Positions 29,980 to 44,349 of a stretch of DNA of 64,000 nucleotides are shown here, piece by piece. The notes under the pieces are model-generated. The model ran no database searches. It was not told the origin of the DNA and saw only the letters and a program-made list of their open reading frames with translations. How positions within the stretch are numbered: the stretch's first letter is position 1; the number at the start of each line of letters is the position of its first letter. Origin of the DNA: Synechococcales cyanobacterium C42_A2020_086 (GTDB lineage: Bacteria > Cyanobacteriota > Cyanobacteriia > Elainellales > Elainellaceae); the NCBI GenBank assembly GCA_015272325.1, contig JACYLU010000033.1, positions 62,001 through 126,000 of the forward strand, given 5' to 3'. A program made the position numbers and the translations under genes.

Positions 29980-32900
29980 TCATTTGGGCTGATGCCTTGC
30001 CTCACCAAAGCGGATGGCTGGCTCTACTTCAGCAAGCTGGAGCGGGCGATCGAGCTTTTGCTGCGCCGAGGTGAGCACAAGCATCATGTACTGCTGTAGC
30101 AACTGCTGCTGCTGAAGATTGACCGAGTAGGTGTGATCGTGCCGCTTCTCGAACAGAGGGCGTGATCGCAACGCTTGGTGTAGAGCCTGATACAGGGGGT
30201 TGGCAGCCGATTCGGACGTGAGCCAGCGATCGGCTTCCGGCACGAGTCCGGGCGGTAGGGGTCCCTCTAGTAGCCTCAGAATCGCAGGCTGGCATGCTGA
30301 GGTATCCAGACCGCGCTGCTGCAAGCGCTGCATTACGTCCTCTAGGGATAGGGCCTGATCGGGGAAAATTCGCAGCAGCTCTAGGAGCAAGAAATAGTCG
30401 CTGTAGCGGTGCTGGGTGGCATGAATCACCTGAGGATGCAGCGGCAGAGTTGCCAAGCCGTAGGAAACACGGCTACAGCTGGAGAAACAATTCTCTTGCG
30501 CCGATGCGGGCGATGGGTAGGTGTCCTGAATAATCGTGGCATTGGGCAACTTTTGCCGCAGCCAACGGGTGATCGCAGCCAAGGAAGCAGTGCCGCCCGT
30601 GCAAATTACATGCTGCACGGCCGAGGCTGCACTCTCGGTTTGGACTAGTAGCGCATTCAGCTCACGGTTCAAGCGCTGTACATAGGGCAGCACCACTTGG
30701 GTCGTTAAATCCTGCCGCGAGATGACGCTGATCCGCTCGCCCCATTTCAGAGTGAAACGGTTCTGCTGATGCAGTCCGTATTTCACCCAGCGAGCTATTT
30801 CCAGAAGAGCTTGCCCGGTTGGCGAGGCGTTGAGCCGCTGCTGCACCTGCTGACGTTTCAACGGATTCAGCTCTGCCGCTGCAGGCAGCTCTAGATCTGC
30901 CAAACGCAGATCGCTGAAGTTGAGCGCCGCTACCTCCAGATCCCAGTCGGAGTCTAGACGAGTGGCTGCCTGGGCTTGAGTCAGTGCCGGATATAGCAGC
31001 GTACAGAGGATGTCTTGGTCGAGATCGTTGCCGCCATAGAGCAGGCTGCGTAAAGAAAACATAGCATGGCTCAGCTCGCTCTTCTGCTCGGGCAGATTGA
31101 CTAGTGCTAGTTCGGTGGCATGGGCACCTGCCTGCACCACTAGCGCCAGACCTTGCCAATTGGCATGCAGCAGTTGTCCACTTTGCCCCAATGCCTGCGG
31201 GAGCTGAATGGGTTGCCCCTGCGTGGAGTCGAAGGTAGAGAGCAGAATCGCGATGGTATCTTCAATGAAAAGAATTTGATCGGGTTGCGCCACCAATCCT
31301 GCCGCCAAAATGACTTCCCTCAGATTGAAGCGATAGGCTTCTGAGCTATGGGCAGGGCAGCCCACAACTACACCCGCAAGCTGTCGTAGCGCCGTTTGCA
31401 GCTCGGGTGGTTCCAGTCCCAATGCGCCCAGCCTAACGTCGGTATCGGGATTTAGACTGCTGAGCAACTGCTGCAAGGCCTGCTGTATTCCGTGCAGCGG
31501 TAGAGCTTGCTCATCGGACCACTGCAAGAGCGGCTCCCACTCGTTTGTTTGGGGTGATTGGTAAGTCAATCCCATGCTCAAAAGCGGCTTCCAATCTTGG
31601 AGAATAGGCGCCACCCGAGGGTCTGAAACGGTAGGCAAGCGGAATCGCCGCCGGCTGCCTGGCTGGGTTGGATCCGCCTCCTGCCAGTAAATGGGGTAAA
31701 GCTGACAGGGACTGCGGTGAAGCAACACGGCAGAGATACCGGTTGTGCCTATATCCATGCCCAGATACCAATCCCGGACAACTGAACCCTCGGTTGGGGG
31801 ACTAGGCGGAGTCGCTGTGGTTGAGACGGCTGCCGTCACGGGCAACGCAGCAGCGGCTGCCTGGGTCAGGGATTGAATCAGCTCGTCTAGCGTTCCGGTC
31901 GGGATAGTAATATTGGGATCAATGTTCGGGTCTAGCTCGCCGGTGAATTCACTAGCGGTCGAAAGGGGCGCTTCAGCTGTCGCGTCTACCTCTTTTTTTT
32001 TTGCTTCGCTGGCTGCTGGTGAGGTCTGCGCCTCGGCAATCGGCTCCGGTATAGCGGGATCCAACCTGCTAGCTGCTGACTCAGCCGAACCTGCGAAATC
32101 CGCCTCTGTCGCAGTGTCGGGTGTAGTGTCAGGCAGTTCGCCAAACAAGTCTTCGAGACGGTCCAGTGTGAAGCCGGTATTCAGCGACAAACTGGGTTCC
32201 GGAGCGGGCGCGCTAGCCGACTCCACAAACTGCGAAAATTCGTCGAGGGTGAGTTCGCCCGGTGCTCCAGCCTGCTCCGCCGGCTCAATGGCAGCAGCCA
32301 TACCCAAGTCTTCAAGACCTTCTAGTAGAAAATCGGGAGGATTCACCGTCTCTAGCGTTGCGGCATCCGACAGCTGAGTTGGGGAATCTAGGGATTCAAG
32401 GGGCAAGGGAGCAGAGGGGGCATCGGCGATCGGCAGCAGGTCAGCCGGCAAAGCGCTAGAGGAGGCAACTTCAGAAGGTAACTCCTCAGAAACTAAAACC
32501 TCTGTGTGAGCTGCATCGGGTGCCTCGCGATCTGCACCTGGAATCAGATCCAGCAGGCTTGTGATTGCATCCAGTGCACTGACGTCAGGGGGAAGATCGG
32601 TCGCTGCATCGGCAGCTAGAGGGGTGTTCAACTCTGCCGTCGAGCTGAGCGCTTCCGCTGGCTCCTGAGCGAGCGTTTGAGAGGCCTGGAGCGACTGTTC
32701 GGTGGATGGTTCCGGCTCGATGGAGTCCGGCAGATCAGGAAGTGCAGCTGCGTCGAAGCTCTGCTCTACCGCGGAACTATCTGGGTTGAGCACCTCTGAC
32801 GAGGACTCAGGGGCTTGAAACAAACTATGGTAAAACTCTTCATCATAGAGGCTTTCGGGTGCTGTAATCAGCTCGATATCTGCTATAGAAGGCGGTTCCG

Positions 32901-34155
32901 GCGGGGTCACGGTTGCCGCTTCAAACTCTACATTGAGCTGGTTCAGCAAGTCGAGTGCCGATTCTAGGTCGCCAACCGGCGAAGGTTCTGCCGTGGAGGT
33001 TGTTTCAGAAGTACTCAATTCTGGCGGCGGCGACTCTAGTGCTGAAGACTCCGAGCCAGTTACGGCGTTACTTGCGGCAAACACCTGCAGCGGATCGAGC
33101 AAGAACTCGTCCTCGGCAGCACTTGCCATATCCGGTGGCGCAACGGTGAGATCGAGCTGGTTCAATTCCTGATCGAGCGCCTCTAGAGTGGCAGAGTTGC
33201 CGTCTTGAGCAAACAGTGCATCTAAAGGGGGCAGGGGAGCGGTACTCGCTTCGGCATCTGGCTCAGACTCTTCTGCAGCGCCTGTGCCGGACAGCGAACG
33301 ATTGGATGGCCAGTTGCCATCTGAAATTGATTGCTGCAAGTAAGCAGATGCCTCCCGTGCTAGCTGCTGCGCCAAACGATTCACTAGGGCTGCAAACATG
33401 GTTTCGCCCTGCTGCCCCAAGCTGTGCATCCGACTCAATCCCTGCTCTAGTGAGTCTTGGTAGGTTTGCACATTGCGGTTGAGGGATTCAAAAATCACGC
33501 GCAAGGTGGCATCCAGCTTTAGCAATAGCTGATCCGACTGGAACTGCATCTGCTGCCATTGCTCTAGTTGCTCTGCGGTGGCAGTGGTGCTTTCCACTGA
33601 GGGGAGAGCTGCTCGGTTGAGCAAGGCTGGTTCTTGGGAGGCTAATGCCGCCATCATTTGGTTGACCTGCCCAGACAGGTTGGCCTGCAACTGTCCCATT
33701 GCTGACTGCAAAAATTCCATCAAGAGCTGCTGCTGCCCGGACATGGCCGCCGACCCATACTGCTGTCGCTGTGCCTCTAACTGCCGCAACTCTTGGGTGA
33801 GGGCTTCTCGCTGGCGTTGCAGCCCTTCTAGCTCTAAGCGCAACGGCTGCAGCATGTTGACGCGCAGATAATTCATTTCCTGCAACACTGCCTGCAAGAC
33901 TTGCTGTGCTGACTCAGCGGCTGGGGAGGAGGTCGGTGCGGGTGGCTGCTGCCCAAGCGATACCGCGTCTGATTCAGGCAAGCGATGGCCCTCTCTCTGA
34001 GCCTGTAGCGACAGCAAATACTGGCGGGTCTGTTCTAGCACCTGCCGCTGCTGCATCGCATTACTAGACAACTCCTCCGAACCAAGCTGAGTTGGGTCGA
34101 GAATTGCATCAATTCCGTTAATCAGCGCTTGAAGTTGAGCCTTTTCAGAAGTCAC
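29980..34155 (-). CDS. Giant protein: coiled coil, acidic disordered region, Hsp70/actin-like ATPase
   Basis: A 1391-residue protein. Residues 1-290 are Gln-rich and helical, likely coiled coil (LQRQREALTQELRQLEAQRQ). Residues about 290-780 are acidic and rich in Ser, Ala, Pro and Glu, with no evident fold. From about residue 788 an actin/Hsp70-type nucleotide-binding fold begins: YLGMDIGTTGISAVLL (phosphate loop 1), then VVVGCPAHSSEAYRFNL, the helix ILFIEDTIAILLSTF, LYGGNDLDQDILCTLL and VICTGGTASLAAITRW. No substrate-binding domain of true DnaK is visible. The start is GTG at 34155. Its function is unknown; a scaffold or regulator is plausible. Confidence 0.8.
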   Translation of the reverse strand: MTSEKAQLQALINGIDAILDPTQLGSEELSSNAMQQRQVLEQTRQYLLSLQAQREGHRLPESDAVSLGQQPPAPTSSPAAESAQQVLQAVLQEMNYLRVNMLQPLRLELEGLQRQREALTQELRQLEAQRQQYGSAAMSGQQQLLMEFLQSAMGQLQANLSGQVNQMMAALASQEPALLNRAALPSVESTTATAEQLEQWQQMQFQSDQLLLKLDATLRVIFESLNRNVQTYQDSLEQGLSRMHSLGQQGETMFAALVNRLAQQLAREASAYLQQSISDGNWPSNRSLSGTGAAEESEPDAEASTAPLPPLDALFAQDGNSATLEALDQELNQLDLTVAPPDMASAAEDEFLLDPLQVFAASNAVTGSESSALESPPPELSTSETTSTAEPSPVGDLESALDLLNQLNVEFEAATVTPPEPPSIADIELITAPESLYDEEFYHSLFQAPESSSEVLNPDSSAVEQSFDAAALPDLPDSIEPEPSTEQSLQASQTLAQEPAEALSSTAELNTPLAADAATDLPPDVSALDAITSLLDLIPGADREAPDAAHTEVLVSEELPSEVASSSALPADLLPIADAPSAPLPLESLDSPTQLSDAATLETVNPPDFLLEGLEDLGMAAAIEPAEQAGAPGELTLDEFSQFVESASAPAPEPSLSLNTGFTLDRLEDLFGELPDTTPDTATEADFAGSAESAASRLDPAIPEPIAEAQTSPAASEAKKKEVDATAEAPLSTASEFTGELDPNIDPNITIPTGTLDELIQSLTQAAAAALPVTAAVSTTATPPSPPTEGSVVRDWYLGMDIGTTGISAVLLHRSPCQLYPIYWQEADPTQPGSRRRFRLPTVSDPRVAPILQDWKPLLSMGLTYQSPQTNEWEPLLQWSDEQALPLHGIQQALQQLLSSLNPDTDVRLGALGLEPPELQTALRQLAGVVVGCPAHSSEAYRFNLREVILAAGLVAQPDQILFIEDTIAILLSTFDSTQGQPIQLPQALGQSGQLLHANWQGLALVVQAGAHATELALVNLPEQKSELSHAMFSLRSLLYGGNDLDQDILCTLLYPALTQAQAATRLDSDWDLEVAALNFSDLRLADLELPAAAELNPLKRQQVQQRLNASPTGQALLEIARWVKYGLHQQNRFTLKWGERISVISRQDLTTQVVLPYVQRLNRELNALLVQTESAASAVQHVICTGGTASLAAITRWLRQKLPNATIIQDTYPSPASAQENCFSSCSRVSYGLATLPLHPQVIHATQHRYSDYFLLLELLRIFPDQALSLEDVMQRLQQRGLDTSACQPAILRLLEGPLPPGLVPEADRWLTSESAANPLYQALHQALRSRPLFEKRHDHTYSVNLQQQQLLQQYMMLVLTSAQQKLDRPLQLAEVEPAIRFGEARHQPK

Positions 34156-43653: not shown

Positions 43654-44349
43654 ATGCAGTTTGCACCGCTTTACCCCTGGATCTACAAAGTGCTGAAGCC
43701 ATCCTTTCCTACCTGTCTGTGGGGGGGGAAGCTCTGTACTCCGGCAATTGCGCTGACATTTGATGATGGACCGCATCCGCAGCATACGCTGGAACTGCTG
43801 GACGTGCTGGATCGTTACCAGGTGACGGCGAGCTTTTTTTGGCTCGGAGTCTGTGTCGAACGGTATCCAGAGGTGGCTCAGGCAGTGTGGCAGCGCGGTC
43901 ACTGGATTGGCCTACATGGGTACGATCACCGTTCCTTTCCGATGCTGTCACCCCAGGAATTGCGACAGTCGCTGCGAAGAACGCAGGCCGCGATCGCCTC
44001 GGCTTGCGGTCTGGCTGCGGAAGACGTGCAGGAGCGGGTTCGAGATGTTCGCCCTCCCAATGGGCTGTTTACACCGCAGACGCTATCCTACCTGGCAGAA
44101 TGGCGCTACCGTCCGGTGATGTGGAGCGTGGTGCCCGAGGATTGGGTGCAGCCAGGTGTTGAGGTGTCTGTGCAGCGCGTATTGCAGCAGACGCAAAACG
44201 GCTCGCTGATTGTGCTGCACGATGGCTATTGCGGCGGGCAAGATGTGGCAGCAACGGCAGATCAACTCATTCCGGCACTGCTGGCGCAAAACTATCAGTT
44301 TGCAACGGTTGAGCAGTTCTGGCAGCAGTCCACGTCAACCGCCCCGTAA
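43654..44349 (+). CDS. Polysaccharide deacetylase (NodB-type, carbohydrate esterase 4)
   Basis: A 231-residue protein with the NodB motifs ALTFDDGPHPQHTLELLD (motif 1, with both metal-site Asp residues), IGLHGYDHRSF (motif 2 region), DVRPPNGLFTPQ (motif 3 with a conserved Arg-Pro-Pro) and LIVLHDGY (motif 5). It removes acetyl groups from glycans such as peptidoglycan or poly-N-acetylglucosamine. No signal peptide is obvious, although the first 25 residues are hydrophobic and might anchor it. Confidence 0.88.
   Translation: MQFAPLYPWIYKVLKPSFPTCLWGGKLCTPAIALTFDDGPHPQHTLELLDVLDRYQVTASFFWLGVCVERYPEVAQAVWQRGHWIGLHGYDHRSFPMLSPQELRQSLRRTQAAIASACGLAAEDVQERVRDVRPPNGLFTPQTLSYLAEWRYRPVMWSVVPEDWVQPGVEVSVQRVLQQTQNGSLIVLHDGYCGGQDVAATADQLIPALLAQNYQFATVEQFWQQSTSTAP

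Follow-up and report, generated by a model that had tools for sequence, protein, structure and literature searches.

Why does a long cyanobacterial gene carry a run of ten adenines at the very border between its linker and its ATPase? The gene lies within 64,000 nucleotides of the Synechococcales cyanobacterium C42_A2020_086 genome (contig JACYLU010000033.1, positions 62,001 to 126,000), the whole stretch that we analyzed and call the window, and it encodes a protein in which an N-terminal coiled coil and an acidic linker are followed by a C-terminal ATPase domain, hereafter the head. Our answer, to which we give a probability of roughly 70% on the strength of sequence comparison, is that the run is a slip site at which RNA polymerase slippage would yield headed and headless forms of a scaffold related to the septal protein SepJ, with the rate of slippage setting the dose of heads. 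That the gene gives two products is very probable; a septal function is the part that we favor with less assurance.

A run of adenines between linker and ATPase

The run encodes a Lys-Lys-Lys stretch (aa 719-721) at the border between the linker and the ATPase, and no other A10 or T10 is present in the 5,928,601-base assembly of the window organism. By our calculation, gain or loss of one or two A's would end the window protein at 722-727 aa, and the gene has the features of dnaX-type slippage, i.e., an A run of at least nine inside the coding region and stops soon after it in both other frames. In family f1, a hand count found a run of A10 or longer within the gene in 24 of the 31 genomes with a match to the ATPase, and in 11 f1 genomes (G000, the window organism, and G003, G004, G005, G008, G009, G018, G019, G021, G027 and G035) it is the only run of that length in the genome.

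Our search for relatives found 190 loci, and all of the 80 named loci kept from these bear cyanobacterial names. In the first 29 loci, the upstream open reading frame (ORF) often ends in Lys codons where the ATPase ORF opens in another frame. We tabulated the state of this border at 121 loci, of which 114 remained after removal of five duplicates and of two broken ATPases (L103 and L176), and ten rows added from smaller loci, for which the upstream frame was taken as the longest open frame, brought the comparison to 124 rows. A run of A9-A11 is present at the linker/ATPase border in 59 of these 124 rows, the window's own included, i.e., in about half; two irregular rows (L039 and L045) and six rows with no coil in reach were left uncounted, and some of these eight carry A9-A11. 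The run is ten A's long in 46 of the 59 rows, nine in 9 and eleven in 4, and all three codon phases are represented, with G, C or T as the next base. With the coil frame as reference, 26 rows have the ATPase in frame, 25 have it at -1 and 8 at +1, and the 46 A10 rows are themselves spread over all three frames (23, 17 and 6 in frames 0, -1 and +1, respectively).

A FastTree phylogeny of the ATPase gave at least 16 changes of frame, a number that is an estimate because the tree has long branches and was made by a quick method. Close relatives can differ in frame, for example L035 (-1) and L005 (+1), or L138 and L140 (-1) and L139 (+1). Since A10 rows occupy all three frames, the frame appears to have been changed through indels beside the run, with the run itself kept. 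Stop codons lie close behind it: in the -1 rows, the coil frame reaches a stop 0-6 codons past the run in 24 of 25 cases (median 1 codon, compared with 14.5 at control positions drawn at random from the ATPase part of the same genes), and the 26 in-frame rows have, in one of their two other frames, a median distance of 2.5 codons to the nearest stop, compared with 11 in the controls (share 0.36, the share being the mean fraction of controls whose stop is as near as the observed one or nearer). A conserved A run with near stops and shifting frames is, as far as sequence can tell, the signature of dnaX-type programmed slippage.

Other rows present the same modules in other arrangements. The two parts are fused in frame in 48 rows where the run is shorter or absent, and in nine rows coil-linker and ATPase are separate neighboring ORFs, a state that changes at least six times on the tree. 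An ATG stands at or shortly before the ATPase start in seven of these nine split rows, and in one of them (L101) a masked stretch lies within the gap between the ORFs. On the slippage reading, the same two modules would be supplied as one chain, as two chains or as a slippage mixture. In one of the irregular rows, L045 (Elainella saxicola E1), the coil ORF loses its frame ahead of an A11 run, apparently through an indel, either real or from sequencing, that precedes the slip site.

A preliminary description of this locus had given the ORF (29980..34155, 1391 residues) with the coordinates and length that we find. It did not mention the A10 run (T10 on the plus strand), and it treated the gene as a single constitutive fusion; the fusion ORF stands, and the ATPase, to judge from the conserved slip site, would instead be an optional head. 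The domain order that it described is present as a fusion in other cyanobacteria (26 rows with the run, the window's among them, and 48 others), and the parts are out of frame in 33 rows and separate ORFs in nine.

The coil, the head and their distribution

From profile comparison, the coil is nearly certain to be of the SepJ type. An hhalign comparison of 14 family coils with eight SepJ coils gave 99.7% (E = 5.5e-26) over 185 columns, and the controls gave 0.9% when reversed and 0.7-37.2% in eight heptad-block shuffles; because the controls reach at most 37.2%, the match is not a generic likeness between coiled coils. At a threshold of E 1e-20, the SepJ profile matches the coil of the gene in 11 genomes, among them that of the window. 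An AlphaFold2 model of the coil was all-helical and weak (predicted local distance difference test [pLDDT] 62, predicted template modeling score [pTM] 0.24), and was set aside.

SepJ is the product of alr2338 and consists of a coil, a linker and a permease, as described in excerpts of PMC12096826 and PMC5623728. The protein, also called FraG and present in Anabaena and other filamentous cyanobacteria, has an N-terminal coil homologous to that of the window protein and, like it, a long linker of low complexity. At the C-terminus, SepJ carries an EamA/DME permease, whereas the window protein carries an ATPase; the latter also has a slip site, and scans of it gave no membrane segment by hydropathy (the highest mean over 19 residues being 1.37) and no EamA match in Pfam. 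By searching the window organism's own genome with the 1391-aa protein, we found its SepJ elsewhere (L002:1447-3342; G000:C23:76627-78498), a 631-aa protein with coil and EamA permease, at a locus that contains no A or T run of seven or more.

The C-terminal part of the window protein is predicted to fold as an Hsp70-like nucleotide-binding domain. AlphaFold2 modeling of aa 764-1391 with 24 aligned relatives gave a mean pLDDT of 85.7 and a pTM of 0.87, and Foldseek matched this model to Hsp70/DnaK nucleotide-binding domains with a best E of 4.2e-13 among the matches listed, at modest template modeling (TM) scores (~0.33-0.40 by query and at most 0.63 by target among the 50 matches listed). VIA gave Z scores of 18.8-21.0 across 313-370 residues against Hsp70/DnaK nucleotide-binding domains, again among the 50 matches listed. 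The fold-matched part comprises model residues ~31-478 (aa 794-1241), and the ~120 residues C-terminal to it, which are helical in the model, were folded and searched only together with it. The Hsp70 assignment is carried by the fold match and not by sequence; hhalign of the ATPase with the genome's own DnaKs gave 9.6% only. Pfam HSP70 (PF00012) had no match in the full window protein at E up to 1, the locus was not among the matches of a PF00012 search of the window organism's genome, and nine of 24 ATPase family members matched PF00012 weakly (best E 0.0046). Searched as a whole against Pfam and NCBIfam, the window protein had zero matches above cut-off.

Two nucleotide-binding motifs are retained in the head, the phosphate-1 motif DxGTTG and the adenosine-type motif TGGTAS. 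The phosphate-2 Asp, which we take to be the catalytic one, is not conserved, being Gln in the window protein (as read from an hhalign alignment to a 531-aa Hsp70-like protein of the same genome), variable in the family and Asp in few members. Because this Asp is replaced while DxGTT and TGGTAS are kept, the head probably binds nucleotide, and its hydrolysis would be weak or absent. Hsp70/DnaK nucleotide-binding domains thus share with the head the predicted fold and the DxGTT-type phosphate-1 and adenosine-type motifs, and the window protein differs from them in having no Pfam HSP70 match, in the C-terminal position of the domain and in the phosphate-2 position. The 531-aa Hsp70-like protein (L178:1525-3117; G000:C20) matches PF00012 and is closer to the head than the genome's DnaKs are (hhalign, 86%), and short matches like it are present in other genomes of the ATPase survey. 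Distant, shorter relatives of the head also occur in family f28 (G200, G234, G318, G196 and genus g66; frames of 400-589 aa, E ~1e-12 to 1e-36), perhaps as stand-alone heads.

The Gln-rich coil and acidic linker of the preliminary description are borne out by composition, with 18.4% Gln at aa 76-276, and 20.6% Asp+Glu and 0.7% Lys+Arg at aa 290-717. Its C-terminal Hsp70/actin-like ATPase, in an order opposite to that of DnaK, agrees with the predicted fold, with the nucleotide motifs only partly kept, and the scaffold that it suggested fits a coil homologous to that of septal SepJ. The outcome named there as a refutation, a C-terminal region that does not fold as an actin-like domain, thus did not arise. 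Its statement that a substrate-binding domain is lacking is less secure, given the helices C-terminal to the ATPase.

To place the gene among cyanobacteria, we surveyed one draw of 291 genomes of the cyanobacterial phylum with completeness of at least 90%, and scored the ATPase as present at E 1e-80 or better, a cut that lies in a gap of the list (next match, 1.7e-36). The ATPase is strongly present in 60 of the 291 genomes (78 at E 0.001), HetR in 64 and a coil-plus-permease SepJ, hand-judged from match ranges, in 61. ATPase and SepJ occur together in 56 genomes, the ATPase only in 4, SepJ only in 5 and neither in 226, and for ATPase and HetR the corresponding counts are 56 with both, 4 and 8 with a single one and 223 with neither. 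Weaker SepJ coils were missed because the SepJ search was run at E 1e-20. This co-occurrence with SepJ and HetR supports a link of the gene to multicellular filaments, and the filament regulator of the preliminary description, if meant in the cytoskeletal sense, finds no support in our results. A search for a relative of the gene in a plasmid collection found none.

Some further observations concern SepJ and HetR. Two HetR-positive genomes of one genus (G236 and G338) have a short SepJ-like permease ORF, of 437 and 434 aa, in which no coil was matched at E 1e-20, and both also lack the ATPase. The SepJ gene lies within ~2 kb of an ORF reading as HetR in three genomes, with HetR confirmed by Pfam in one; in Anabaena, sepJ presumably adjoins hetR. 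The window organism has two HetR_C matches (G000:C20:293540-293776 and G000:C37:337024-337260), one weaker than the other, and the pair suggests a second HetR-like protein.

The coordinates of the gene and its parts are collected in Table 1. The motif of the second linker recurs as TLADLIQDLT or a near-identical sequence in several relatives. The coil match extends to residue 1 in 86 rows of relatives, and these have GTG (78 rows), TTG (5) or ATG (3) as the aligned start codon; GTG (window 34153-34155) is unusually constant for a weak start, and is perhaps kept to hold expression low. Elsewhere in the window, a G8 run (43721-43728) lies within an ORF at 43654-44349.

Table 1. Positions in the window of the gene, the parts of its product and the slip site with its associated stops
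Feature	Position	Strand	Basis or detail
Full-length gene	29980..34155	minus	1391 aa, GTG start
N-terminal helices, aa 1-56, family-conserved	33988..34155	minus	alignment of 14 sequences; low-confidence model with helices at 3-19 and 31-56
SepJ-type coiled-coil domain, aa 76-276	33328..33930	minus	hhalign against SepJ coil
Acidic Pro/Ser/Thr/Ala-rich linker, aa 290-717	32005..33288	minus	composition; net charge -85
A10 slip site (T10 on the plus strand)	31993..32002	minus	codons GCA AAA AAA AAA
TAG stop, reached via 1 A lost or 2 added	31986..31988	minus	products of 722 and 723 aa
TGA stop, reached via 1 A added or 2 lost	31973..31975	minus	products of 727 and 726 aa
Second linker, aa 722-795, long form only	31771..31992	minus	motif TLDELIQSLTQ
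Hsp70-like nucleotide-binding domain, ~aa 794-1241	30433..31776	minus	predicted fold; invariant columns in family alignment
C-terminal helical extension, ~aa 1246-1363	30067..30420	minus	model residues 483-600; also in ATPase family alignment

Proposed mechanism and its alternatives

In the mechanism that we propose, RNA polymerase would slip at the A10 run and leave part of the mRNA one A longer or shorter. Unslipped mRNA would give the 1391-aa headed form and slipped mRNA a headless form of 722-727 aa that ends just past the run, and the two forms would share the SepJ-type coil and the acidic tether. The coil would oligomerize as SepJ does, and because both forms carry the same coil and tether, headed and headless subunits might co-assemble, plausibly also with SepJ, and form a septal scaffold of oligomers in multicellular filaments. 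The slippage rate would set the number of subunits bearing the Hsp70-like head, which may serve as a nucleotide-dependent clamp on a partner. SepJ itself forms multimers and its coil binds peptidoglycan, according to excerpts of PMC5623728 and PMC12096826, the first of which gives complexes of ~296-334 kDa and peptidoglycan binding by the isolated coil. A tentative extension, to which we give low odds, is that multicellular cyanobacteria possess a dnaX-like device for dosage at the junctions between cells, in which headless and headed subunits would mix with SepJ and the number of heads would set the assembly or gating of the septal complex. As to the partner of the head, a pure guess would be the J-like domain that has been considered in ZipN, a divisome protein, and this guess is opposed by an excerpt of PMC6391411, in which J-like domains of that kind are said to act without Hsp70.

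Several observations weigh against this mechanism. With its full-length frame open, the window ORF can be explained without a short form. Stops in the second other frame of the 26 in-frame rows lie no closer than in controls (median 14.5 and 12.5 codons, respectively; share 0.46), the closeness of stops in the eight +1 rows is weak (median 9 compared with 19.5; share 0.34), and 12 of the 59 slip-site rows, L036 and L044 among them, have a coil frame that was assigned by the longest open frame and not by a coil match. A clade of 53 rows, whose names include Nostoc, Calothrix and Scytonema, holds 39 plain fusions without the run and 14 rows that keep A9 or A10 in frame; since the run was lost and the plain fusion kept in those 39, they would either do without the short form or produce it in some other way. 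As the split rows show, there is no need for head and coil to share one chain. Finally, the septal location is drawn from homology and co-occurrence, and the co-occurrence counts are inflated by kinship of the genomes.

Among the alternatives, the one that survives best accepts two products and gives them a job unrelated to SepJ or septa, for example as a pilus- or chaperone-linked factor. By sequence, the best family matches of the head, though weak, lie in the PilM/FtsA branch of actin-like ATPases: 21 of 24 ATPase members match Pfam PilM_2 (PF11104) at E up to 1, with a best E of 1.5e-5, and phmmer against the PDB returned weak PilM matches only. The window protein is below the curated cut-off of PilM_2 (17.8 bits, compared with 27), and PilM is not among the 50 VIA fold matches listed, which is no proof of its absence. 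The coil, however, is specifically SepJ-like, and the presence of the gene follows that of coil-bearing SepJ, so that we regard a non-septal job as doubtful, if worth keeping in mind.

Both products could also arise by ribosomal frameshifting, as an A run of at least nine always holds an in-frame A_AAA_AAA. The dnaX gene of Escherichia coli works in this way (excerpt of PMC5009743), a shift of -1 is what 25 of the 33 out-of-frame rows need, and a Shine-Dalgarno-like motif lies 5′ of the run in 10 of the 59 rows, a raw count with no background rate. The eight remaining out-of-frame rows need +1, although in one of them (L110) an ATG right after the run could instead restart translation, and run lengths cluster at 10 although 7 suffices. 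In the region 3′ of the run, our analysis gave no signal of an RNA structure that would stimulate frameshifting (mean z -0.33; z below -2 in 4 of the 59 rows). Given that the run is tied to no codon phase, can precede G, C or T and has no such structure downstream, we favor slippage by RNA polymerase, and consider frameshifting by the ribosome improbable.

It is very improbable that the run is a contingency tract, i.e., that DNA indels at a phase-variable site toggle the ATPase between cells; homopolymers mutate often, and the frame does differ between close relatives, but across these rows, with no comparison made inside a species, the length of the run is near fixed (A9 in 9 rows, A10 in 46 and A11 in 4), and A10 is found with each of the three frames. 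That the gene is an ordinary fusion, with the A run as a Lys-Lys-Lys spacer and the frame differences as assembly errors, would suit the continuous ORF of the window and of all 53 rows of the Nostoc-Calothrix-Scytonema clade, yet it is scarcely credible for a run found in 59 rows from many assemblies, including out-of-frame rows on single genome-size contigs (L138, 6.7 Mb; L159, 5.5 Mb), with a frame independent of run length, with stops that hug the run in -1 rows and with no other A10 in the window's genome.

Known systems and significance

The closest precedent for the coding arrangement is, by analogy, dnaX, as presented in excerpts of PMC5009743 and PMC3711429. The Thermus thermophilus gene (tau/gamma, made by transcriptional slippage) likewise has an A run in a single open frame with stops soon after in both other frames, its products likewise are a short form and a longer one with an additional C-terminal module, and some dnaX genes are reversed, like the out-of-frame relatives described here. 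The product of dnaX is an unrelated protein, and the window family differs in its frame changes, at least 16 in number, and in having some lineages that are split or plainly fused. A search of the open-access literature by title and abstract found no paper on this gene or its slippage, and an earlier listing, for example in GeneTack cluster supplements, is possible.

SepJ is a key protein of bacterial multicellularity, and its role “remains elusive” in the words of an excerpt of PMC12096826. If the slippage reading is true, a companion gene with a SepJ-like coil, an ATPase head and a built-in control of their ratio would be a direct genetic handle on septal junctions, and a widespread cyanobacterial gene would join the known conserved slippage genes such as dnaX. 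Its lineages would show one gene in all of the alternatives, i.e., as a slip site in three frames, as a plain fusion and as a split pair.

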